DNA of 64,000 nucleotides from Oribacterium sp. WCC10. GTDB lineage: Bacteria > Bacillota > Clostridia > Lachnospirales > Lachnospiraceae. Positions 51,187 to 64,000 of the stretch are shown here, in pieces (position 1 is the first letter of the stretch; each line of letters opens with the position of its first letter). The notes under the pieces were generated by a model. That model did no database searches. It was given only the letters and a program-made list of their open reading frames with translations, and was not told the DNA's origin. Both the position numbers and the translations under genes were made by a program. The stretch covers positions 124,001 to 188,000 of the forward strand of contig NZ_FOPH01000006.1 in assembly GCF_900113415.1 (NCBI RefSeq). The letters run 5' to 3'.

Positions 51187-52749
51187 ATGACTAGAAATAA
51201 ACGAAACATGATTACGAAGAGATGGAAACCGGTATCCATCGGAAAGGTAGCGCTTGCGGCAGGAGCTATCGCTACAATGATGTCAACTGCAGCACTTGCA
51301 TCAGGGTGGTCACAGGATGGAGATGACTGGTATTATCTTGATTCCAGCGGAGATCCGGTGACAGACTGCTGGAAGCCGTCTGACGGAAAGTATTATTATC
51401 TTGGTTCTGACGGAACTATGGCAAAGAACACTCTTATCGAAGACGGAGATAATTACTACTATGTAGGTTCAGATGGTGCCATGGTTACCAATGCCTGGAA
51501 GGCAGTTACCACAGATGATGACAACTACGACGGATATGCCTGGTACTACTTCCGTTCAACAGGTAAGGCTTATACAGATACTTCAAGTCCGGTAACAATC
51601 GGAAGCAACAAGTACATGTTCGATGAAGACGGACAGATGCTTTATGGATACGTTGATGAAAATGGAGAAATGATCGATGTCACAGAGGATGTAGAGGGCG
51701 TTTACGAGGCTGTGTGGTATTTTGGAGATAAGGACAGCGGTGCCATGGTCACAGGCTGGCATCAGTACGAAGAGGATCTTCAGAGTGCCAATGAAGACTA
51801 TGAAGACTATTCTTCAATCTGGTTCTATTTTAAGTCAGAAAACGGAAAGAAGCTCACAGATACAACAAAGATCATCAATTCCTACAGATATACATTTGAT
51901 GCAAACGGCGTCATGACATCAGGATGGACTACATCAACGGCTACTTCATCAAGTACATCATCAAGTGATTCAACAACCTACAGATATTCAGATCTCACAT
52001 CAGGTTCTATCAAGAAGAACTCGTGGGTACAGGCAATTCCAAGCGAGGAAATGGATGAGGACGATTATGAGGATGGAACATATCGCTGGTTCTATACCAA
52101 TGCATCAGGCTATGTAGTCACAAGCCAGTCCAAGAAGATAAATTCAAAGTGGTACTTCTTTGATGATAACGGTATCATGCAGAGTGGACTTCTGGTTCTT
52201 GACGCATCCGCTATATCAAGCTGTTCATCTATAGTTGAGGACCTTGACGAGGATTCGGTTACAGCAGAGGATATCTATGCTCTCGGCGATGAAAGCGGCG
52301 ATCTCAACCTCTACTATTTCGGTGACGAGAACAGTGGTGCAATGAAGAAGGACGGAACCGTATCTATTGAACTTGAGGATGATACATACACATTCTACTT
52401 TGGTTCAAATGGTAAGGCTTATAACGGAATCAAGAGCTCAAAGTATTATAAATACGGAATCCTTCAGAAGGCTTCAAGCGATACATATTATGAGCTTGTT
52501 GAGTACGGTTCAACAGGAGAATACGTACTTGTAAGCAAGTCAGGTTCTGTTGTAACAAGCGGTTATGTAAAGGATGCTGATGAAAACTATTATGCTATCC
52601 ACAGCGGAAAGGTAGCCTTTATCGAAGCCGATGACCTTGCTGCAAAGGCAGCTGCGGCGTATAAGGCAGGAAATGACACCTTTACTTACAGCTCAACAAC
52701 CTATAACACAGAGGATTACATTTCAGCTGAGTACACACTTTATAACTAA
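51187..52749 (+). CDS. Secreted cell-wall-binding repeat protein
   Basis: 520 residues. Signal peptide about 1-38 (basic start, KVALAAGAIATMMSTAALA-S). The mature part is nearly all aromatic-glycine wall-binding repeats (DDWYYLDSSGDPVTDCW, KWYFFDDNGIMQ), with acidic Asp/Glu and Ser/Thr-rich spacers such as the stretch around residues 250-275. No enzyme domain. TAGGAGG precedes ATG 51187; a hairpin CGTTC-CCGAAA-GAACG (51152-51167) lies in its leader. Third protein of this type in the window. Confidence 0.85.
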   Translation: MTRNKRNMITKRWKPVSIGKVALAAGAIATMMSTAALASGWSQDGDDWYYLDSSGDPVTDCWKPSDGKYYYLGSDGTMAKNTLIEDGDNYYYVGSDGAMVTNAWKAVTTDDDNYDGYAWYYFRSTGKAYTDTSSPVTIGSNKYMFDEDGQMLYGYVDENGEMIDVTEDVEGVYEAVWYFGDKDSGAMVTGWHQYEEDLQSANEDYEDYSSIWFYFKSENGKKLTDTTKIINSYRYTFDANGVMTSGWTTSTATSSSTSSSDSTTYRYSDLTSGSIKKNSWVQAIPSEEMDEDDYEDGTYRWFYTNASGYVVTSQSKKINSKWYFFDDNGIMQSGLLVLDASAISSCSSIVEDLDEDSVTAEDIYALGDESGDLNLYYFGDENSGAMKKDGTVSIELEDDTYTFYFGSNGKAYNGIKSSKYYKYGILQKASSDTYYELVEYGSTGEYVLVSKSGSVVTSGYVKDADENYYAIHSGKVAFIEADDLAAKAAAAYKAGNDTFTYSSTTYNTEDYISAEYTLYN

Positions 52750-52880: not shown

Positions 52881-53186
52881 CCGACTAACACGAAATCGAG
52901 AGGAGCGTATTTCTCCACTCGAATATGTTCTTCAGCTTCGTTTCAGAAGGAACTGATACAATGCTGAAATAAATTGTGCAAATTAAGGCAGTATGGCCTT
53001 GAATCAGATTTTGAGACAGCTGCTGCAGAAATGGTAAATACGACAAATTACAAAACATAAGGGGCAATAATTATCCCCCCTGCGTATTCTTGAAAATGTG
53101 AATAAAAATTGAAAACATTAATTCGGAAAAATGGTGAAAAACCGAAGCGGATGAGATGTTGGGGATAGTAATAATCGGGAGTTTTG

Positions 53187-54266
53187 ATGGAACAGAAACT
53201 TATCTTCGTGGTGGACGATGAAATGGCAATAAGAGAGATGGAGCAGACTTATCTTGAAAGTGAAGGATATATGGTGGAAACATTTGCCACTGCCGATGAT
53301 GCAATAGAGGCGATGGAAAATGGCGATAGGACACCTGATCTACTTCTTATGGACATAATGATGCCGGGGACCGACGGTCTTTCGGCATGCGGCAAGATAA
53401 GAAGATCTGAGAAGCTTACACTAAGGCTGATGCCGATAATACTTGTTTCTGCGAGGGATACAGCTCTTGATAAGGTTACAGGACTGACTATCGGCTGTGA
53501 TGACTATCTGGCAAAGCCGTTCCTTCCGCTGGAACTGTTGGCGAGAGTTAAAGCACTTTTGAGACGCTCCGAAATGCTTATGAGCGGACTGAAAAAAGTG
53601 GAAGATGGAGAAATGTCAGATGAGGAAATAAAAGTGGCCATAGGAGAGGATTTGTTTTATGAAATATATCGGGGCGGAAGTTCACAAAATGTGGGAAGAA
53701 ACATTGATAATTGTGGAAATCTGTATCTGGACAGAAAGGCTCACAGGATATATGTAGATCAAAATGCAAAAAACACACAATTATCAGAAGATATAAAGGG
53801 CAAAAATGTGGATAAAGAAAGTATCGGAATAAAAGCAAAAAGTCTGATAAAGAATAAAAAGATTTTAGATATACTTGATAAAGGAAGCAATGTAAGGGGC
53901 AATGAAGGATATACTTTAAAAACAGCTAAAGAAGGTATGAAAAATGATCCTGACATTGACCCGTATGGCGAATCATCAGGAAGGGATTCAAAAGAAGATC
54001 ACGATAATAGTGTAAAAATTATTGACCTTCAGGTCACACCGATGGAGTTTGAATTCGTACAATATCTGATGCTCCGTAAAGAGACGGCAGTGCCAAAAAC
54101 AGAACTGCTCACTGAAATATGGCATCTTCCGGATGCAGAACTTAAGGATGGGGTGAGGATGACTGACGATCTTGTAAAGAGATTAAGGAAAAAAATGGCT
54201 ACGGCAGGATCTACAGCGAAAGTAAAAACCGTCTGGGGATATGGGTACCGACTGACCGAAAACTGA
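53187..54266 (+). CDS. OmpR-type response regulator with split DNA-binding domain
   Basis: 359 residues against about 230 normally. Receiver domain with acidic D10/D11, phosphoacceptor D56 (LLMDIMMPG) and K110 in LAKPF. The winged-helix effector starts as LYLDRKAHRIYVD (about 179-191), is interrupted by about 85 Lys/Asp/Asn-rich residues (192-277), and resumes at IIDLQVTPMEFEFVQYL through VKTVWGYGYRLTEN. A polar extension of about 40 residues also precedes the effector. No kinase gene is adjacent, so its partner is elsewhere. CGGGAG precedes the start. Confidence 0.85.
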   Translation: MEQKLIFVVDDEMAIREMEQTYLESEGYMVETFATADDAIEAMENGDRTPDLLLMDIMMPGTDGLSACGKIRRSEKLTLRLMPIILVSARDTALDKVTGLTIGCDDYLAKPFLPLELLARVKALLRRSEMLMSGLKKVEDGEMSDEEIKVAIGEDLFYEIYRGGSSQNVGRNIDNCGNLYLDRKAHRIYVDQNAKNTQLSEDIKGKNVDKESIGIKAKSLIKNKKILDILDKGSNVRGNEGYTLKTAKEGMKNDPDIDPYGESSGRDSKEDHDNSVKIIDLQVTPMEFEFVQYLMLRKETAVPKTELLTEIWHLPDAELKDGVRMTDDLVKRLRKKMATAGSTAKVKTVWGYGYRLTEN

Positions 54267-54537: not shown

Positions 54538-56742
54538 ATGAGAATTAAACTGGCTAAATATATATCTGAAAAACTTGTTGAGAACGGAATCACACAGAAT
54601 TTCTCTGTTACAGGTGGAGGAGCCATGCACTTAAACGATGCCTTCGGACATCAGAAGGGGATGCATACACTTTACCAGCATCATGAGCAGGCATGCGCGA
54701 TGGCGGCGGAATCCTATGCACGTATATATAACCGTCCGGCACTGCTATGTGTAACATCAGGGCCGGGAGGCACCAATGCAATCACCGGGGTTCTCGGAGC
54801 GTGGCTTGATTCTATTCCTATGATAGTGGTATCAGGACAGGTTCGTTATGACAATACTGCCCGTTGGGCATCGGAGCAGAACGGAAGTCGTCTTCGTGCC
54901 ATGGGTGATCAGGAATTTGAGATAACAAAATCCATCTCCTGCATGACAAAGTATGCGGAGATGCTGAATGACCCTAAGAGAGTCCGCTATGCGGTTGAGA
55001 AATGTTTGTATCTTTCACAGACCGGGCGTCCGGGTCCGGTCTGGCTTGATATACCTGTTGATGTACAGGGCACATTTATCGAGACAGACGAACTTATCGG
55101 TTTTGACAAAGCCGATTACGAAGCCGGGGGCGACGGATGGTCTGATAAGGAAGCTGCAGCAGCTCATATCAGACCTGAGGATAAAGAAATCACAGATCGC
55201 GAGAAGCCTATACCGCCACTTGATCCTTCTGTTCCAAGAAGGATCATCGAGAAACTACGTTCTGCTGAAAGACCTGTGTTCTATACAGGCAACGGCATAC
55301 GTATAGCCGGTGCCGAGACACTGTTTCTTGAAGTGGCACATCGTCTCAATATACCGGTGGTTGTTGGCTGGAATGCTCCAGACATTATCCCCACAGGAGA
55401 CCCGCTTTATGCAGGACGTCCCGGTGGAAGAGGTGACCGGCCGGGAAACCTTGCAGTTCAGAATTCCGACCTTATCCTGAGCATCGGATCAAGACTTAAT
55501 ATCCGTCAGGTGGGTTATAATTTTGATACATGGGCAAGGGACGCATATGTCATAGTAAATGATATCGACGAAGAAGAACTTAAGAAACCGTCAGTTCATT
55601 GTGATATGCCCGTACACGCCGATGCGAGAACTCTTCTTAAGGCACTTCTCAGAGAACTTGATATGCTGGGTATAACCAGAGATGAGCCGTTGTTCAAAGG
55701 CGGGAAGGGTATTCTCAGAGGGGATGCATTGAGCATTTGCCACAATGAAAAAGCAAAAGAGGTTCTGCTTGACGGTGAAAAAGAGGCAGCAGGCAGTGCC
55801 GAGGCATGCAGTAAGAGTGAACATCTCACATGGCTGGAGACCTGTGCATTCTATAGAGAGAACTACCCGACAGTGCTTCCTGAACACTTTGAACCAAACA
55901 GCAAGGCGCAGGATATGCAGGATGATCCTGAAAATCGTGCCAATGTTTATGCCGTAATTGACATTATTTCCCGTATGGCTGAGCCGGGACAGGTAACCGT
56001 TGTAGGAAACGGATCCCCTTGTGTTGCGGGAGGACAGGCATATATCATAAAGAACGGAAGCAGATTTATTTCGCAGGATGGTGTTGCCTCTATGGGATAT
56101 GGTCTTCCTGCGGCCATCGGTGCAGCAGTTGCGGTACATTCCGTTAATGTTCCTGAAGATCCATCCTTCTATGAAACTGTGGATGAGAGACTTCAGGCTG
56201 AAATTCATGATACCTACTGGACGGGAAAGGATGAGAGTTATCCGCCATATGATAAACATGATATTATACTGCTGACAGGAGACGGCTCTATACAGATGAA
56301 CCTTCAGGAACTTCAGACCATCATAAGCCATAAGCTTCCTATAAAAATATTTGTCATCAACAACGGTGGATATCATTCCATCAGACAGACACAGACGAAT
56401 CTCTTTAAGGGAGAACCTCTTGTGGGGATCGGCGTGGACTCGGGAGTAGAGGGTATCAATGATCTCAGCTTCCCTGATATGGAGAAGCTGGCAGCAGCTT
56501 ATGGATATCCGTTTGTAAGAGTATCCCACAATCAGGACCTTGAAGATGCTTTCAGAAGAACGCTTGAAACCAAAGGACCGGTTATCTGCGAGATCATGGT
56601 TACAATGACTCAGCAGTTTCTCCCGAAGTCTGCTGCAAGGAAACTTCCGGACGGTTCTATCATAAGTCCTCCGCTTGAAGATATGGCTCCTTATCTCTCT
56701 GATGATGAGATGGACAAAATAATGCTTGTAAAACGTATATAA
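54538..56742 (+). CDS. Thiamine pyrophosphate-dependent enzyme, acetolactate synthase-like
   Basis: 734 residues, longer than the usual 550-600. Pyrimidine-binding domain with catalytic E50 (YQHHEQACAMAAESYAR), central domain, then the TPP motif TGDGSIQMN ... VINNGGY. Two extra polar stretches (about 385-455 and 535-575) explain the length. In surface polysaccharide loci such enzymes can carry a two-carbon unit from pyruvate to a keto-sugar (YerE-type) instead of making acetolactate. The neighbours here are sugar and glycosyltransferase genes, not branched amino acid genes. GAAAGGATC precedes ATG 54538; the 271 bases before it hold no gene. Confidence 0.85.
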   Translation: MRIKLAKYISEKLVENGITQNFSVTGGGAMHLNDAFGHQKGMHTLYQHHEQACAMAAESYARIYNRPALLCVTSGPGGTNAITGVLGAWLDSIPMIVVSGQVRYDNTARWASEQNGSRLRAMGDQEFEITKSISCMTKYAEMLNDPKRVRYAVEKCLYLSQTGRPGPVWLDIPVDVQGTFIETDELIGFDKADYEAGGDGWSDKEAAAAHIRPEDKEITDREKPIPPLDPSVPRRIIEKLRSAERPVFYTGNGIRIAGAETLFLEVAHRLNIPVVVGWNAPDIIPTGDPLYAGRPGGRGDRPGNLAVQNSDLILSIGSRLNIRQVGYNFDTWARDAYVIVNDIDEEELKKPSVHCDMPVHADARTLLKALLRELDMLGITRDEPLFKGGKGILRGDALSICHNEKAKEVLLDGEKEAAGSAEACSKSEHLTWLETCAFYRENYPTVLPEHFEPNSKAQDMQDDPENRANVYAVIDIISRMAEPGQVTVVGNGSPCVAGGQAYIIKNGSRFISQDGVASMGYGLPAAIGAAVAVHSVNVPEDPSFYETVDERLQAEIHDTYWTGKDESYPPYDKHDIILLTGDGSIQMNLQELQTIISHKLPIKIFVINNGGYHSIRQTQTNLFKGEPLVGIGVDSGVEGINDLSFPDMEKLAAAYGYPFVRVSHNQDLEDAFRRTLETKGPVICEIMVTMTQQFLPKSAARKLPDGSIISPPLEDMAPYLSDDEMDKIMLVKRI

Positions 56743-56801
56743 AGGGGTATTATAAAGTCGCGGGGGTATATCGCAAGTATAGAGAAGAGGGGAATAACCG
56801 T

Positions 56802-57782
56802 ATGAAAGTACTCATCACCGGCGTCACGAGTTTTCTTGGCGTTCACACGGCATTACAGCTTTTAGGGGAAGGTCATGAAGTGATCGGAGCTGTAAGACCC
56901 GGAAGTAAAAATGAATCCGTACTGGAAGAGAGGGGCGTTACAGAATATCAGACGTACCGCACAGTATATCTGGATTTTGACAGTCTTCCGGATGCAGAGC
57001 TCGGAGAGGAGCATTTTGCGGAGCAGGTAGAGAAGACAGGAGATGGAGAGGATGTTATCGATGCATGGCTCCATTTTGCCTGGGATGGTATCGGATCGGC
57101 GGGAAGAGAGAACACCGATATCCAGATACAGAACATTGAAAATGCAAAAAAGGCTTATCTTATGGCAAAGATTTTGGGGGCGAAGAAGTTTGTATTCGCG
57201 GGTTCCCAGGCAGAGTATGGTGACGGAAATCATCGCTTACCGCGCCCTGTAAGTCCTTACGGGAAGGCAAAACGTGCCTTTGGGCGTTGGGCTACAGAAC
57301 AGAGTCTGCTTGGCCAGATCTATGACAGTGAGGCTATGCAGTTTATCCATATGCGCATATTCAGTGTATATGGTGACGGGGATCATAAGACAAGTCTTGT
57401 TAATACTGTGCTTAAGGGATCAATCAAGAGAACACCTGTGGTTTTAGGCCCATGTGTTCAGAGATGGAACTATCTTGAGGTTCGTGACTGCGCAAGGGCT
57501 ATCAGCATCCTTATACAGTCCAATGATACACGCACAGATGTATATGATATAGCTGGCAGCGATTCCAAGATACTTAAAAAGTATGTACAGGAGATGAATG
57601 AGATCGCAGGCGGCGGAGCTGAACTTGAGTTTGGAATGAGAAGCAACAATGCGGAGGGTGCAGCCAATATGGCACCTGAGATTCTGAAGCTTCAGAGACT
57701 CGGATTCCGACAGGAGATATCCTTTGAAGAGGGTATCGGTGAGCTTGTTCAGAAGAAACGACTGGAGCTTGAGGCCGGCTGA
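56802..57782 (+). CDS. NAD-dependent sugar epimerase/dehydratase
   Basis: 326 residues, extended short-chain dehydrogenase. Rossmann glycine motif GVTSFLG near residue 7, substrate-side FAGSQAEYG, and catalytic YGKAK. Acts on a nucleotide sugar (epimerisation, dehydration or 4-keto reduction); which one cannot be read. Sixty bases after the TPP enzyme and before a terminator, so the two form a short operon. AGAGGGG precedes ATG 56802. Confidence 0.88.
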   Translation: MKVLITGVTSFLGVHTALQLLGEGHEVIGAVRPGSKNESVLEERGVTEYQTYRTVYLDFDSLPDAELGEEHFAEQVEKTGDGEDVIDAWLHFAWDGIGSAGRENTDIQIQNIENAKKAYLMAKILGAKKFVFAGSQAEYGDGNHRLPRPVSPYGKAKRAFGRWATEQSLLGQIYDSEAMQFIHMRIFSVYGDGDHKTSLVNTVLKGSIKRTPVVLGPCVQRWNYLEVRDCARAISILIQSNDTRTDVYDIAGSDSKILKKYVQEMNEIAGGGAELEFGMRSNNAEGAANMAPEILKLQRLGFRQEISFEEGIGELVQKKRLELEAG

Positions 57783-57796
57783 AGGAAAGATTAAAG

Positions 57797-57840
57797 AGCT
57801 TCTATGCATGAAGATAATTCATGCATGGAGGCTTTTTTAT
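57797..57840 (+). terminator. Terminator inside the polysaccharide locus
   Basis: AGCTTCTATGCATGAA (57797-57812) pairs with TTCATGCATGGAGGCT (57818-57833, wobbles) followed by TTTTT. Separates the TPP-epimerase pair from the methyltransferase group. Confidence 0.88.
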
Positions 57841-57990
57841 TAAGCCGATTAGTATATATAACCCACGGATCTTGCAAGATTATTATATACAGGTTGAATA
57901 TGTCTGGTTTGAGTATCAATTATTGAGTTGACTTTAATCCGGTATTGAAGTAGAAATTGATGTTAGTTATAGAACAAAGGATGTGTATAT

Positions 57991-59301
57991 ATGAACAATA
58001 AATGTATCGCCTGCGGGCATGAACTTAAGAGGCTTATGACATTTGAAAATATGCCTGCATCGGCTCAGAATATACCGGATGCGGAGGAGTTAAGGGAGGA
58101 TTTTCCTGTCACGCTTGAACTTTGTCAGTGCCCGGAGTGCGGACTTGTTCAGTTCGATTGCGAGCCGGTGGACTACTACAGGGATGTTATCCGTGCGGGA
58201 GGCGGAACCAGCACTATGACAAGGCTTCGTCATGAGGAGTACGCGAGACTGCTCGGTTATATGCGAGAATATGGTATCAAAGGAAGAAATATCGTTGAGG
58301 TTGGCTGCGGTCGTGGAGAGTTTCTTCGTATGTGGCAGAATCTGGCAGACGATGAAGCCGGAATGGAAGCACTGAAACTGGACAGTGAAAAGGATATGCT
58401 GTCAGGTCAGCCTAAGGCAGGACCTATCAGGCTTACCGGGATAGAACACAAGAAAGAACTGGTTGATGAAGCTATGAAGCTTGCGGTAAACGAAAAGCCG
58501 GTAAATGCAGTAGGGGAGGCGGCAGGAGTGCCTGAGATCCGATATCAGGTATTTGAGGGCTTTGCTGAAGGTGACTACAAAATACCTAATGGGCCTTTTG
58601 ATGCATTTGTTCAGTTTAATTTCCTTGAACACCAGCCATATCCTCAGGATATGTTGAGGAGCATTCGCAATAACCTTAAGGATAAAGCAATCGGACTTGT
58701 TACGGTTCCTAGTTTTGAGTATATCCTTAAGTATAACGGCTACTATGAGTTGCTTCATGATCACATTGCGAACTACACAGAGTTCACTCTGCAGAAACTC
58801 TTTCAGGACAATGGCTTTGAGGTTCTCGATATGCGAACTGTCAATAGAGACACTATTGAGATCATAGTCAGGAAGGCAGAGAGCGAAGATCTCAGTACAC
58901 TTCGATATAACGGTAGACTCATCGATGTGTCGGCGCTTCGGGAAAGCTACGACAGAATGGCTAAAGATATTAATGCTCATATTGAGCACCTTACGGAATC
59001 AGGAAAGACCCTGGCAATCTGGGGCGCCAGTCATCAGGGATTTACTCTTGCGGCAACCACCGGCCTTTCCGGAAAGGTGAAATACATCATAGACTCGGCA
59101 AAATTTAAACAGGGACGATTTGCACCTGCTTCACACATTCCGATTGTTTCGCCGGATCATTTCGGTGAAGATCCTGTTGATGAGATACTTATCGTGGCAC
59201 CCGGGTATACTGACGAGATAGCCGGCATTATCAAAGAACGCTACGGAAGCGATGTCAGAGTTCTTGTGTTGAAGACTGACAGGATTCAAGACTATAAATG
59301 A
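57991..59301 (+). CDS. Sugar C-methyltransferase
   Basis: 436 residues with the three-part build of nucleotide-sugar C-methyltransferases: N-terminal zinc site (C5, C8, C47, C50 in CIAC and CPEC), class I SAM domain (IVEVGCGRGEFL, 101-112; QFNFLEHQP), and C-terminal domain with WGASHQGFTLAATTG. About 45 residues are inserted after the SAM motif. These enzymes add a methyl branch to a keto-sugar carbon. The stop is followed one base later by an ATG of the next gene's frame; the two are coupled. Confidence 0.85.
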   Translation: MNNKCIACGHELKRLMTFENMPASAQNIPDAEELREDFPVTLELCQCPECGLVQFDCEPVDYYRDVIRAGGGTSTMTRLRHEEYARLLGYMREYGIKGRNIVEVGCGRGEFLRMWQNLADDEAGMEALKLDSEKDMLSGQPKAGPIRLTGIEHKKELVDEAMKLAVNEKPVNAVGEAAGVPEIRYQVFEGFAEGDYKIPNGPFDAFVQFNFLEHQPYPQDMLRSIRNNLKDKAIGLVTVPSFEYILKYNGYYELLHDHIANYTEFTLQKLFQDNGFEVLDMRTVNRDTIEIIVRKAESEDLSTLRYNGRLIDVSALRESYDRMAKDINAHIEHLTESGKTLAIWGASHQGFTLAATTGLSGKVKYIIDSAKFKQGRFAPASHIPIVSPDHFGEDPVDEILIVAPGYTDEIAGIIKERYGSDVRVLVLKTDRIQDYK

Positions 59302-59320
59302 TATGATTCGAAAGGACACA

Positions 59321-60517
59321 ATGAAGGCGCTTGTTTTAAAGGGAAAAGGAAAAATAGCATATATAGATAAGAGGGAACCTGAACTCGAGGCACTTCACGG
59401 TGCACTTCTCGAGCCGATTTTGGTTTCTCCCTGCACTTCGGATGTTCATACCATATGGCAGGGGAGTCCGAAGCGTGATGATCTGACTCTTGGTCATGAG
59501 GTTATCGCCAGAGTCAAGGCGGCCGGCGAGCTGGTAAAAGACTTTAAACCGGGAGAGATAGTTGCGGTTTCGGCCATCACACCGGATTGGGGACATCCGG
59601 ATGTAGATGAGAACTATGCTCATGCGGGACAGAATTTCAGCGCTCATATGATAGGGAAATCCATAGACGGAGCCTTTCAGAGCCTGTTCTATCTCCCTTT
59701 TGCCGATAAGAATCTGGCACACATTCCGGATGGATTATCCCTTGAAGACGCGCTTATGTGCGTTGATGTGGTGCAGACCGGTTTCACTGCCGTGGAAGAA
59801 GCGGGCGTGAAGTCGGGTGATACTGTGGTTGTTATGGGTATAGGCGCCATAGGACTCGCAGCCATAATGGGAAGCAGGATGGCAGGTGCAAAAAAGATAT
59901 TTGCGGTGGGATCAAGACAGGATAATGTCAGACTGGCAGAATCCATGAGCGATGAGTTCTGTTCTGTGGAGGTGTTAAACTACAGGGATTTAAAATGCAG
60001 TCTTCCGGCGGGGATGCACCCTCTTGCAAATTCCACGGGTTCTCCGGTAGTTAACTATGTTCTCGGGAAAACCGGAACAAAGGGCGCAGATTGTGTTCTT
60101 CTGTGCGGGGGCAATGACCTCAGTTTCCCGCAGGCTGTGGATATGGTTAAATATGGCACCGGAGTTGTCTCCAATGTTATGTATTATGGCGCAGATATCG
60201 ATGTGCAGGATGAAGAATACGTAAATCTTGTGAACCTTAAACAGGGTGAAGCAAATGCAGTCATTGATGCTATACAGATCCCGAAGTTCTCCATGGGCCG
60301 GGGAATGGCGGGAAAGACACTGAAATTCTCATTAAGCAGGGGAGGCCGTGAGAATCTTGAACGTGTCATGAAAGAGGTCGTAAAACACGGGTGGCACCCT
60401 TCGGCTTTTATTACCAAACGATATATGGGACTTGATAATATAGAAAATGCCATATATGACATGAAGGACAGGAAGGCCATAAAGATAGCGGTTCAGCTTG
60501 CTAAACCTGAAGTCTGA
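59321..60517 (+). CDS. Zinc-dependent secondary-alcohol-type dehydrogenase
   Basis: 398 residues. Closely follows the clostridial secondary alcohol dehydrogenase pattern: catalytic zinc ligands C38 (SPCTSD), H59 (LGHE) and an Asp in CVDVVQTGF; TPDW loop; NAD(P) site VMGIGAIGLAAIMG. The structural-zinc cysteines are absent, as in that group. In this locus it may reduce a ketone on a sugar side chain. ATG 59321 follows AAAGGAC; ATG 59303 is in frame but has no site. About 40 residues longer than relatives, with an insert near 220-240. Confidence 0.85.
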   Translation: MKALVLKGKGKIAYIDKREPELEALHGALLEPILVSPCTSDVHTIWQGSPKRDDLTLGHEVIARVKAAGELVKDFKPGEIVAVSAITPDWGHPDVDENYAHAGQNFSAHMIGKSIDGAFQSLFYLPFADKNLAHIPDGLSLEDALMCVDVVQTGFTAVEEAGVKSGDTVVVMGIGAIGLAAIMGSRMAGAKKIFAVGSRQDNVRLAESMSDEFCSVEVLNYRDLKCSLPAGMHPLANSTGSPVVNYVLGKTGTKGADCVLLCGGNDLSFPQAVDMVKYGTGVVSNVMYYGADIDVQDEEYVNLVNLKQGEANAVIDAIQIPKFSMGRGMAGKTLKFSLSRGGRENLERVMKEVVKHGWHPSAFITKRYMGLDNIENAIYDMKDRKAIKIAVQLAKPEV

Positions 60518-60529
60518 TAGTACAATCGA

Positions 60530-60690
60530 CGCTGTGTGTCCTCAGATTTTCCGGGGACAGGATCGAAATTTGCAATCGTTTGAACGATTGCTGCAAAGTT
60601 GTGCCGATTTTCTTTGGGAATCCGGCATATATTCAAGCCCCTTTGCGATTCGCGTCGAAGCGAAATCCAGGTGGGCCGTCATATATAGAG
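60530..60690. other. Hairpin-rich intergenic stretch
   Basis: Between the dehydrogenase and glycosyltransferase genes lie a stem TTTGCAATCG/CGATTG..GCAAA (60569-60597) and a further imperfect stem around GATTCGCGTCGAAGCGAAATC (60648-60668). An in-frame upstream extension of the glycosyltransferase runs through here but looks non-coding. No gene is supported. Confidence 0.4.
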
Positions 60691-60699
60691 GATAAGATA

Positions 60700-61686
60700 T
60701 TGAAAACAATAAGTATCGTAGTTCCGTGCTACAACGAGGAAGAAAATGTAGTACCTCTTTATGAGGCCATAAAAGCTATGTTTGCGAAGGAACTTCCACA
60801 ATACAGATATGAGATCATTTACATAGACAACGATTCCAAGGACAGGACGAGAGAATTGGTCAGAGGTCTTTGTGCGGAAGATAAGGATGTTAAGGCCATC
60901 TTCAATGCAAAAAACTTCGGACAGTTTAACAGTCCCTACTATGGCATGCTTCAGTCTACAGGTGATGCCACCATGCTTATGGCGGCTGACTTCCAGGATC
61001 CGGTTGAGATGATACCGCAGTTCGTAAAGGCCTGGGAAGAAGGATTCAAGATTGCTATTGGTGTAAAGACCCAGTCGCAGGAGAATGCTCTCATGTATTT
61101 CATCAGAGGCGTCTACTATAAGCTGATAAAGAAAATGTCATCTGTGGATCAGATCGCCCAGTTCACAGGCTTCGGTCTCTATGACAAAGAATTCATCAAT
61201 GTCATGAGAAATCTCAATGATCCGACTCCTTTCCTTAGAGGTATAGTTGCGGAACTTGGATTCAGAAGAAAAGAGATACCTTATACACAGCCCAGACGTC
61301 GTGCGGGTATAACACACAACAACTGGTATTCTCTTTATGATGCGGCAATGCTCAGCTTTACCAGTTACACCAAGGTGGGACTCAGAATGGCTGTATTCTT
61401 TGGAGGAGTATGCAGTGCTATCAGTATGGCTATTGCTATCGCCTACCTTGTGATGAAGCTTATCTGGTGGGACAGATTTCCAGCCGGTATGGCGCCGATG
61501 CTTATCGGTATGCTTTTCCTTGGCTCTATTCAGATATTCTTTATCGGGCTTTTGGGGGAGTATATTCTTTCGATCAATCAGAGAGTCATGAAGAGACCTC
61601 TGGTAGTGGAGGAAGAACGCCTGAATTTTGGAGATGCTCCGAGATACAGGGGTGTCCGTGATATGGAGAAGGTGGAAAATGTATGA
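60700..61686 (+). CDS. Family 2 glycosyltransferase, polyprenyl-phosphate type
   Basis: 328 residues from TTG 60700, seven bases after GAGGAT. N-terminal GT-A domain with SIVVPCYNEEEN, metal site AADFQDP, and two C-terminal membrane helices (about 235-300). This is the DPM1/GtrB arrangement that charges a lipid carrier with one sugar at the cytoplasmic face. It overlaps the next gene by four bases. A start at ATG 60580 would add 40 residues unlike the family and is rejected. Confidence 0.88.
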   Translation: MKTISIVVPCYNEEENVVPLYEAIKAMFAKELPQYRYEIIYIDNDSKDRTRELVRGLCAEDKDVKAIFNAKNFGQFNSPYYGMLQSTGDATMLMAADFQDPVEMIPQFVKAWEEGFKIAIGVKTQSQENALMYFIRGVYYKLIKKMSSVDQIAQFTGFGLYDKEFINVMRNLNDPTPFLRGIVAELGFRRKEIPYTQPRRRAGITHNNWYSLYDAAMLSFTSYTKVGLRMAVFFGGVCSAISMAIAIAYLVMKLIWWDRFPAGMAPMLIGMLFLGSIQIFFIGLLGEYILSINQRVMKRPLVVEEERLNFGDAPRYRGVRDMEKVENV

Positions 61687-64000
61687 TGCGATATAAAGTT
61701 GATGTTGCCATCTCCAGAGAAGGAAAGATCACTTTCCTCGGATGGGCATTCGGTAAAGATCCGGAGACACCGGTTAAGTATTCGGTGCTTGACGGTGACG
61801 GAAATCCCGTTCCGGGGACAGTTGTAGAGTCAGTGAGAAGAGATGAGGTGGTGGAAGCCTTTTTCAAGGATTATGAAAAGGAACACGGACCCATCAAGAG
61901 AGAACTGGGCTATGACATTAACACCCCGTATCAGAAGGGCGAGACCAGATATCTCGTTATAGAAGTTGACGGCAAGACCAAAAAGGTTAAGTTTGATGAC
62001 CGGATACTTGAGTCCTTTAACTCTGTGGCACATAAAAAAAGAGAGAAACTCATGGCATTGTTTCAATGGGAAACTGTTGAAGTTGCCTGGGATTGCTTCC
62101 GTGAGCAGGGACTTCGTGTACTATGGAAAAAGGCATTTCACCGGCTGCAGGGTATTCAGGAGGATTATGACTACAATGAGTGGTATAAGAAAGTAAAGGT
62201 TACAGATTCAGAACTTGAGAGTCAGAGAAAAGAAAACTTTCCGGTTAAGCCTAAGTTTTCTATAGTTATCCCGGTTTATGAAACCCCTGAGAAGTTCCTG
62301 AGAAAGATGCTTCAGTCCATAGCGGATCAGACCTATGGTGAATTTGAGGTTTGTGTTGCGGATGCTACACCTTATACTGAGTACACCAAGAAGGATGCAG
62401 CAGGTATGCTCCCGAAGGAAGTACTTCAGGAATTTCATGAGAGAGATTCGCGTTTCAGATATACGGTTCTTGAAAAGAATCTCGGTATCTCTGACAATAC
62501 CAATGCTGCCATCAATATGGCAACAGGTGACTTCATCGTACTTGCAGATCATGACGATGAGCTTGAGCCCGATGCCCTGTATGAGTGCGCAAAGGCCGTG
62601 AATGAGCATCCTGAAGTCGTTATGATCTACTCTGATGAGGATAAGATAGATTTCGAAGATACATACTACTTTGAACCACACTTTAAGAGTGATTTCAATC
62701 CGGATCTCCTCCGTTCGGTAAATTACATCTGTCACCTTCTGGTGCTGAAGAGAGAACTTCTTGATGCCATAGCAGAAACGGATGAAGATGGCAATAAAAT
62801 CTACGAGCGTAAGGAATACGACGGTGCGCAGGATCATGATCTCATACTTCGCGCTTCTGAAAAGGCTCAGGAGATGGAGAAGGAAAGAACCGGTGGAAAT
62901 GTTGAAAAGCTCAGTGAGGGCGACAGGAAGCTTGTTAAGGAAGGCCGCTTTGTGAGCTCCAATATCTACCATATACAGAAGTCTCTCTATCACTGGAGAT
63001 CCCATCAGGCTTCAACTGCTCAGCATCCTGAAGCTAAGCTTTATGCCTTCGATGCAGGAGCAAGAGCAGTGTATGATCACTGCAAGCGCCTGGGACTTCC
63101 TGTCAAGAAGGTGGAAAAGGGAATAACCTATGGCTTCTATCATACTATATATGATGATAATGAGCCTTTAATCTCGGTTGTCATTCCCAATAAGGATCAT
63201 ACTCAGGATCTCGATAAGGCTATCCGCTCTCTTGCCGAAAGCAGCTATAAGAATCTTGAGTTTATCATCGTTGAGAACAATTCTGATCAGTCTGCAACCT
63301 GGAAGTACTACGAGGAAATACAGAAGCAGTATCCTGACGGAAACTGTGTTGAGAAGACATCGGATGAGATAATGAATGATGGCCAGACGGAGATTCCGGA
63401 CGGAGATAATTCACGATGTGATATGGAGACTTCGGGTACGGCCGGATTCGAGGAAATCAGACTTTCTAAGCCTACAGTCCGTGTAGTCAAATGGAAAGGT
63501 CCGTTTAACTATTCGGCCATCAACAACTTCGGCGTTAAGTTCACCCACGGAGAGTACATACTCTTCCTGAATAATGATATTGAGCTTATAGATGAAAACT
63601 CCATTCACGAGATGATCTCCTATGTTCAGCGCGAGGATGTGGGCATCTGCGGAGCGAGACTACTTTATCCTGATGAGGATATACAGCATGCCGGAGTCAT
63701 CATGGGCATGGGTGGAATCGCAGGAGCGGCATTCGTGAGAACTCATGATGCTGAGCTTTCATATATGCATAGGGCAAAGTGCGTGCAGGATTACTCCTGC
63801 GTTACAGCGGCCTGCCTCCTTACAAAGAGGAGTCTGTTTGATAAGGTGGGAGGTTTCACAGAGGATCTTGCAGTGGCGTTCAATGACGTAGACTACTGTA
63901 TGAAGATAAGAGCTCTTAACAAGCTGGTGGTTTACAATCCTTATGCGAAGTTCTATCACTATGAGTCCAAGTCCCGCGGTATGGAGGATACACCTGAAAA
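61683..64000 (+). CDS. Large family 2 glycosyltransferase, two catalytic domains, 3' end missing
   Basis: At least 772 residues, running off the window. The first 185 residues form an N-terminal domain not recognised in detail. Domain 1 begins near KFSIVIPVYETPEKF and has LADHDDELEPDA and the YSDEDKIDF loop. Domain 2 begins near LISVVIPNKDHTQDL and has ILFLNNDIELID and AVAFNDVDYCMKIR. Tandem GT2 enzymes of this kind build rhamnose-rich or similar surface glycans. The start overlaps the preceding stop (ATGATG around TGA), so translation is coupled. Confidence 0.88.
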   Translation, partial: MMRYKVDVAISREGKITFLGWAFGKDPETPVKYSVLDGDGNPVPGTVVESVRRDEVVEAFFKDYEKEHGPIKRELGYDINTPYQKGETRYLVIEVDGKTKKVKFDDRILESFNSVAHKKREKLMALFQWETVEVAWDCFREQGLRVLWKKAFHRLQGIQEDYDYNEWYKKVKVTDSELESQRKENFPVKPKFSIVIPVYETPEKFLRKMLQSIADQTYGEFEVCVADATPYTEYTKKDAAGMLPKEVLQEFHERDSRFRYTVLEKNLGISDNTNAAINMATGDFIVLADHDDELEPDALYECAKAVNEHPEVVMIYSDEDKIDFEDTYYFEPHFKSDFNPDLLRSVNYICHLLVLKRELLDAIAETDEDGNKIYERKEYDGAQDHDLILRASEKAQEMEKERTGGNVEKLSEGDRKLVKEGRFVSSNIYHIQKSLYHWRSHQASTAQHPEAKLYAFDAGARAVYDHCKRLGLPVKKVEKGITYGFYHTIYDDNEPLISVVIPNKDHTQDLDKAIRSLAESSYKNLEFIIVENNSDQSATWKYYEEIQKQYPDGNCVEKTSDEIMNDGQTEIPDGDNSRCDMETSGTAGFEEIRLSKPTVRVVKWKGPFNYSAINNFGVKFTHGEYILFLNNDIELIDENSIHEMISYVQREDVGICGARLLYPDEDIQHAGVIMGMGGIAGAAFVRTHDAELSYMHRAKCVQDYSCVTAACLLTKRSLFDKVGGFTEDLAVAFNDVDYCMKIRALNKLVVYNPYAKFYHYESKSRGMEDTPE

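Follow-up and report, generated by a model that had tools for sequence, protein, structure and literature searches.

A probable yersiniose-type branched-sugar pathway with an added C-methylation module in surface-polysaccharide clusters of Lachnospiraceae

The stretch of DNA analysed here, referred to as the window, comprises 64,000 nucleotides of Oribacterium sp. WCC10 (Lachnospiraceae), bases 124001-188000 of contig NZ_FOPH01000006.1, coded C21; the loci and genomes compared with it are coded L and G. Positions 54538-60517 hold four co-directional open reading frames (ORFs), all on the + strand and separated by 59, 208 and 1 bases. The first (54538..56742) encodes a YerE-like thiamine diphosphate (ThDP) enzyme of 734 amino acids (aa), for which the proposed role is transfer of a two-carbon acyl unit onto the C4 ketone of a cytidine diphosphate (CDP) sugar, and is followed by SDR1 (56802..57782; 326 aa; PF01370), an extended short-chain dehydrogenase/reductase (SDR) with a YxxxK motif and the proposed ketoreductase of the branch. 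The third and fourth encode CMT, an S-adenosylmethionine (SAM)-dependent sugar C-methyltransferase (57991..59301; 436 aa; PF08484), and ADH, a TbADH/CbADH-like zinc alcohol dehydrogenase (59303..60517; 404 aa; PF08240 and PF00107) proposed as a second ketoreductase tied to CMT. An earlier note on this DNA had placed such a set here, and both the ORFs and the Pfam domains agree with it.

Two family-2 glycosyltransferase genes follow the set, as had also been described: the PgfS/ArnC-like GT2a (60580..61686, +), co-conserved with the ThDP enzyme and SDR1, and the multi-domain GT2b (61683..64000, +), which is 833 aa in full and continues beyond the window end. Downstream, the contig encodes two PF02397 initiating sugar transferases, an LCP protein, a Wzy-type protein and more glycosyltransferases, along with a protein of choline-binding repeats and another of the B12/radical-SAM type; by these polysaccharide genes, the surroundings are a surface-polysaccharide cluster, in keeping with the surface-glycan setting first proposed. 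Promoter-like sites are not enriched in the stretch (12 versus 13.4 in shuffles) and terminator-like sites lie slightly above shuffles (7 versus 4.5), so that, with both near shuffle level, operon limits are not fixed.

The ThDP enzyme exceeds the cut-offs of PF02776, PF00205 and PF02775 and shows a three-domain decarboxylase-type architecture with the catalytic Glu and a GDG...NN motif. Its best sequence match in the PDB is JanthE (8rph; 341 bits, compared with 179 bits for the top-scoring acetolactate synthase), which also ranks first for the fold model (mean predicted local distance difference test score, pLDDT, 86). JanthE is termed YerE-like in PMC12188165, and the window enzyme is assigned as YerE-like by way of JanthE alone, not of YerE itself. 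Among 35 aligned relatives, E50, G581 and G583 are kept in all 35, N608 and N609 in 34 each and D582 in 33, and K697, which corresponds to JanthE chain position 568, is invariant; that position is taken as K567 of PMC12188165, since Y297 is likewise displaced by one residue. The enzyme is longer than most relatives read (599-741 aa), with insertions at about 376-430 and 537-572, and residues 537-557 are modelled at low confidence. A plasmid search with this protein returned nine records, all below 30% identity, four of them annotated as acetolactate synthase and the remainder unannotated or without a feature.

The genes for a suitable acceptor lie on the same contig, 112-117 kb upstream of the set. 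RfbF, RfbG (a CDP-glucose 4,6-dehydratase, C21:62596-63651) and RfbH score 387, 430 and 716 bits against TIGR02623, TIGR02622 and NF011936, all over cut-off, as homologues of DdhA, DdhB and DdhC, and such enzymes convert glucose-1-phosphate to CDP-4-keto-3,6-dideoxyglucose. Their operon also encodes an acyltransferase, LicD and a PgfS-like glycosyltransferase, and no recognised reductase was found among its ORFs of at least 200 aa. According to PMC12247030, CDP-4-keto-3,6-dideoxyglucose is the acceptor of YerE. Since the Rfb genes for this substrate are found on the contig, stand beside the ThDP gene in relatives and co-occur with it, the core of the pathway is judged to be a yersiniose-type route with a probability of about 0.75, a figure that covers the core only and not the choice of one sugar over two.

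The Rfb operon recurs in the close ThDP clade, defined as the 32 genomes whose top match scores 460 bits or more. Of its 27 RfbH loci read, 24 hold all three Rfb genes and 21 hold LicD and the PgfS-like gene as well, while matches to the ThDP enzyme, to SDR1, to a second SDR (SDR2), to ADH and to CMT are absent from all 27; in these genomes the operon is a companion located elsewhere. LicD is encoded in the RfbFGH operon and choline-binding-repeat proteins flank the glycan cluster, the features concerned lying at window 51187-52749, L002 18316-19962 and L041 2220-3101; the glycan is perhaps phosphocholine-bearing, with bound proteins.

Across a family sample of 299 genomes, a ThDP match at E<=1e-60 occurs in 81, RfbH over cut-off in 99 and both in 76, so that RfbH is present in 76/81 genomes with the ThDP enzyme versus 23/218 without it (Fisher 1.3e-43, kinship ignored); it is also present in 32/32 genomes of the close clade and in 19/19 CMT genomes. 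Forty ThDP loci, one from each of 40 genomes among the 81 and mostly those with the highest scores, were read for gene order. RfbF, RfbG and RfbH adjoin the ThDP gene in seven of these loci, and CMT lies in the stretch read in 15. When loci were instead picked by CMT alone, keeping the best 80 of 322 relatives in an alignment scan, the ThDP gene was present in 74/80, which indicates that the set is more than chance. Of the six loci without it, contig ends truncate two (L134, L140) but not the other four (L139, L179, L186, L195). At least one Rfb gene is present in 7/80 CMT loci, and L156 reads RfbF-RfbG-RfbH-ThDP-SDR-CMT-SDR2-GT2a. In a second set, the genomes of 50 of the 80 CMT loci (L131-L179 except L136, together with L186 and L195), RfbH exceeds its cut-off in 47. 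GT2a and GT2b occur both with and without CMT.

The identity of CMT as a sugar C-methyltransferase, also part of the first description, is upheld by PF08484 (62.3 bits, cut-off 23.5) together with a whole-chain fold match, in which KijD1, TcaB9 and MtmC take the first 18 rows for the model (mean pLDDT 88), well clear of the remaining matches. The zinc domain PF08421 reaches 21.6 bits, below its cut-off of 31.3; the zinc-type cysteines C8, C47 and C50 are kept in 16/16 sequences and C5 in 15/16. The equivalents of TcaB9 H225 and H181 are likewise kept in 16/16, and Y222 is replaced by I or L and E224 by D in all 16, so the acceptor of CMT may differ from that of TcaB9. Among the best 80 of the 322 relatives, the closest are from Oribacterium.

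The secondary-alcohol type assigned to ADH agrees with its nearest PDB matches, which are NADP-dependent secondary-alcohol dehydrogenases (best 214 bits). Residues C44, H65, E66, D155, G203, R205 and Y227 are kept in 10/10 sequences and S204 in 8/10, and these are taken to be the zinc ligands and NADP-binding residues. Of the 80 CMT loci, 74 are uncut by contig ends and six are cut; among the uncut loci, SDR is joined by ADH in 45 and by a second SDR in 27, giving exactly one second reductase beside SDR in 72/74, with L139 (ADH only) and L165 (all three reductases) as the exceptions. The state changes between ADH and second SDR at least eight times on the CMT tree, so the two are interchangeable. 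Joint conservation of the set, called in question beforehand as a possible point of failure, is thus found in both the ThDP count of 74/80 and the reductase count of 72/74.

Of the 24 ThDP loci of the family sample in which no CMT was found, 22 hold one SDR and none holds ADH or a second SDR; SDR is missing from L076, a 5-kb contig, and from L079, and L058 is also cut short after SDR. L042 was set aside, having ADH in the stretch read and CMT about 8 kb on (L119). Family-set loci with CMT have two reductases in 13/15 cases, where L062 ends after CMT and L055 has ADH, GT2a and GT2b on another contig. Because the second reductase accompanies CMT in 72/74 loci and appears in 0/24 without it, CMT and ADH appear to be a detachable extra module. 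Enzymes resembling TbADH only interconvert ketone and alcohol, and this chemistry, taken with the interchangeability, points to a second step that would be a ketone reduction or its reverse.

In 14 of the 80 CMT loci, SDR1 and CMT form a single ORF of about 700-750 aa (L157, L159, L160, L162, L167, L170, L173, L185, L186, L190, L193, L194, L197 and L209), and one further locus, L177, has a CMT-SDR2 fusion. Without constituting proof, the fusions speak for a single substrate chain on which SDR1, CMT and a second reductase all work.

SDR1 itself had been described as an epimerase, a role that was dropped: no epimerase equivalog model exceeds its cut-off, and the word is only the name of the Pfam family. 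It is probably a ketoreductase. Since SDR accompanies the ThDP enzyme in 22/24 loci that lack both CMT and ADH, SDR1 is more likely than ADH to reduce the acetyl ketone. In gene position, beside the ThDP gene, SDR1 stands where a YerF-type reductase of the acetyl branch would be expected. On plasmids, relatives of this SDR were found in 27 records, of which four neighbourhoods were read, and rfbF and rfbG lie beside the relative in three of the four. In two of those three, from Methylovirgula and Paenibacillus, a split transketolase-type ThDP enzyme then follows; on the Paenibacillus plasmid the SDR is fused to the N-terminal half of the split transketolase and a PF08484 methyltransferase adjoins. 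These clusters span L237 5122-11097 (Methylovirgula) and L238 3666-9777 (Paenibacillus), and their arrangements favour a role of the SDR on the branched product. The Sinorhizobium plasmid carries an SDR relative without an annotated rfb gene.

The sequence-based observations are thus the protein families, the Rfb genes, their conservation, the nested occurrence, the reductase swap and the fusions, and from them we infer every chemical step, donor, regiochemistry and order in the following scheme. RfbF, RfbG and RfbH would convert glucose-1-phosphate to CDP-4-keto-3,6-dideoxyglucose, after which the ThDP enzyme would decarboxylate a 2-keto acid, of which pyruvate is the likeliest, and place the acyl unit on the C4 ketone, leaving a tertiary alcohol that carries an acetyl branch. 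SDR1 would reduce this branch to 1-hydroxyethyl, CMT would use SAM to add a methyl group beside a ketone, with an accompanying extra ketone reduction by ADH (by a second SDR in other genomes), and GT2a and GT2b would transfer the product into the polysaccharide. Sugar C-methyltransferases require a ketone adjacent to the carbon that receives the methyl group; with the C4 ketone consumed by the ThDP enzyme, no ring ketone would be left unless CMT acts first, on the acetyl side chain, or on a second ketone. The acetyl side chain, ring C3 and C5 have been considered as methyl positions.

Whether both branches are borne by one sugar is a separate matter from the core route. A doubly branched 3,6-dideoxy sugar, with the ThDP-made two-carbon branch and the SAM-derived C-methyl group on the same residue and with a bifunctional SDR-C-methyltransferase in one clade, is put forward tentatively, at somewhat under even odds; no such sugar type was found described in the open-access literature searched. 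In direct comparison it is placed slightly ahead of two sugars because of the fusions, the nested occurrence (CMT in a subset of the ThDP genomes and these in a subset of the RfbH genomes, with exceptions) and the shared GT2a. If instead two sugars were drawn from one 4-keto pool, the ThDP enzyme and SDR1 would yield a yersiniose-type sugar and CMT with ADH or a second SDR a separate C-methyl sugar, an account that is possible, if doubtful. It explains best why a second ketoreductase accompanies CMT, and oligosaccharides of the avilamycin type carry acetyl-branched and C-methyl sugars in one molecule. It also suits the loci with CMT and a reductase that have no linked ThDP gene, namely L139 (CMT-ADH without SDR or GT2a) and G056 (SDR2-CMT-HAD-RfbH, in a genome where no ThDP match reaches E<=1e-60). 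Set against it are the SDR1-CMT fusions, the finding that, in all six genomes with a ThDP-less CMT locus, the ThDP enzyme is matched elsewhere (best E from 1e-66 to 1e-186; fragments in some cases) and the module bringing no extra glycosyltransferase, given that GT2a and GT2b are present regardless of CMT. The arrangement in which ADH reduces the acetyl ketone and SDR is the epimerase, as the earlier note had it, now appears unlikely: enzymes like TbADH do reduce methyl ketones and ADH keeps its zinc and NADP residues, but ADH tracks CMT, is swapped for SDR and is absent from the 24 CMT-less loci, for which reasons it was rejected as the enzyme that reduces the acetyl ketone in the core.

The core reading has its own difficulties, several of which would fit a ThDP enzyme that uses another nucleoside diphosphate (NDP)-keto sugar while the Rfb operon serves something else. 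Here the operon lies 112 kb from the set and could serve another sugar, five of the 81 ThDP genomes (G138, G187, G199, G235, G239) lack RfbH over cut-off, and three of the 50 CMT genomes miss it (those of L131, L140 and L172); L172 has RfbF and RfbG beside its ThDP gene. This alternative is nevertheless considered quite improbable in view of the single-operon Rfb-ThDP arrangements in relatives, the co-occurrence of RfbH with most ThDP genes and the 27 close-clade Rfb loci that have no ThDP enzyme, SDR or ADH match of their own. Also to be counted against the preferred yersiniose-type route with its methyl module are the relatedness of the genomes, by which the Fisher values are not true probabilities; the exceptional L139 and G056; the likening of SDR1 to YerF by gene position, not sequence; and the Bacteroides plasmid, where rfbF-rfbG accompany an SDR relative (26%) but no ThDP gene is annotated, so that the SDR family may act on a CDP sugar without branching. 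Two ketoreductases exceed the obvious need of one doubly branched sugar, and chemistry requiring two ketone reductions on one sugar was considered and none found. All 14 SDR1-CMT fusions sit in one supported clade of 16 rows on the CMT tree (Shimodaira-Hasegawa-like approximate likelihood ratio test, SH-aLRT, 96), so they may be a single persisted event. An acetolactate synthase, or another central-metabolism enzyme that has ended up in a glycan locus, is a highly improbable identity for the ThDP enzyme. Many acetolactate-synthase models match it, yet the acetolactate-synthase model gives 281 bits with a cut-off of 538, the protein falls below every listed cut-off, JanthE is its nearest relative and the glycan setting is conserved. 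Two true acetolactate synthases, at 672 and 622 bits and over cut-off, are encoded on contig C33 of the same genome, which makes it unlikely that the ThDP enzyme forms acetolactate alone, named beforehand as a possible refutation; the identity was dropped, and a YerE-like enzyme on a nucleotide-sugar path, as first proposed, is retained.

Three further observations concern neighbouring or divergent loci. G190 holds a divergent cluster (L118 5132-17263) with RfbF, a distant ThDP enzyme, NeuB-cupin, HAD, ADH, SDR, GT2, radical SAM and CMT genes, whose ADH is 62% identical to that of the window and whose contig also carries RfbG-RfbH (L117 6915-9343). A B12-binding radical SAM protein lies within the polysaccharide cluster (L003 884-2647), and the response regulator just upstream of the set (window 53184-54266) has an unusually long spacer between its receiver and DNA-binding parts.

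Among known systems, JanthE of Janthinobacterium sp. HH01 is the closest solved relative of the ThDP enzyme in both sequence and fold, with 30% identity in the fold alignment; the two share the lysine (568/K697) and a C-terminal SPPLED stretch, whereas the window enzyme has the canonical GDG in place of CDG and carries two insertions. The physiological substrate of JanthE is given as not known in PMC12188165. TcaB9, KijD1 and MtmC have the same fold as CMT, which keeps the four zinc-type cysteines and the equivalents of TcaB9 H225 and H181, and share 16-20% identity with it; unlike theirs, the companions of CMT point to CDP rather than deoxythymidine diphosphate (dTDP) sugars. Split-transketolase clusters of the miharamycin type (PMC12247030) likewise place a ThDP-made branch on a keto sugar. 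They do so with an unrelated ThDP subclass, and their CDP-sugar versions with an SDR1 relative in Methylovirgula and Paenibacillus have a predicted function. The same text lists 13 candidate ketone-accepting split transketolases, all from Streptomycetes, and states that most YerE-like genes have no known sugar structure.

The yersiniose pathway of Yersinia pseudotuberculosis (ddhA-ddhD, yerE, yerF) provides the closest overall parallel, sharing the glucose-1-phosphate cytidylyltransferase, the CDP-glucose 4,6-dehydratase, RfbH/DdhC, a YerE-like ThDP enzyme of one chain and a gene of reductase type next to it. Homologues of yersiniose genes are noted in Pseudomonas WCS417 (PMC4509608), and C4-branched octoses are ascribed to single-chain YerE in Gram-negative polysaccharides and to two-component enzymes in Gram-positive antibiotics (PMC4753412). 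The present single-chain YerE-like system lies within polysaccharide clusters of Gram-positive Lachnospiraceae, and the ThDP enzyme is present in more than a quarter of the genomes sampled from this family. A yersiniose-like sugar is reportedly part of an antigen of Eubacterium (now Lachnoanaerobaculum) saburreum; a search on saburreum found nothing on this system, and neither the Lachnospiraceae system nor its methyl module was found described in the open-access literature. Should the proposed pathway be correct, commensals of the gut and rumen carry branched 3,6-dideoxy sugars as a surface decoration, and from the methyl module would come a new sugar as well as new enzymes for the synthesis of C-methyl sugars and tertiary alcohols; named, culturable strains make the sugar structure behind YerE-like genes testable. 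The pathway as a whole had been taken for a possible new one, and of this the part that stands is the module of methylation and second reduction, the core being the known yersiniose route. The Lachnospiraceae system therefore appears to extend a known pathway, from which it differs in its Gram-positive host, in RfbFGH often forming a separate operon with LicD, and in the addition of a C-methyltransferase and a second ketoreductase.

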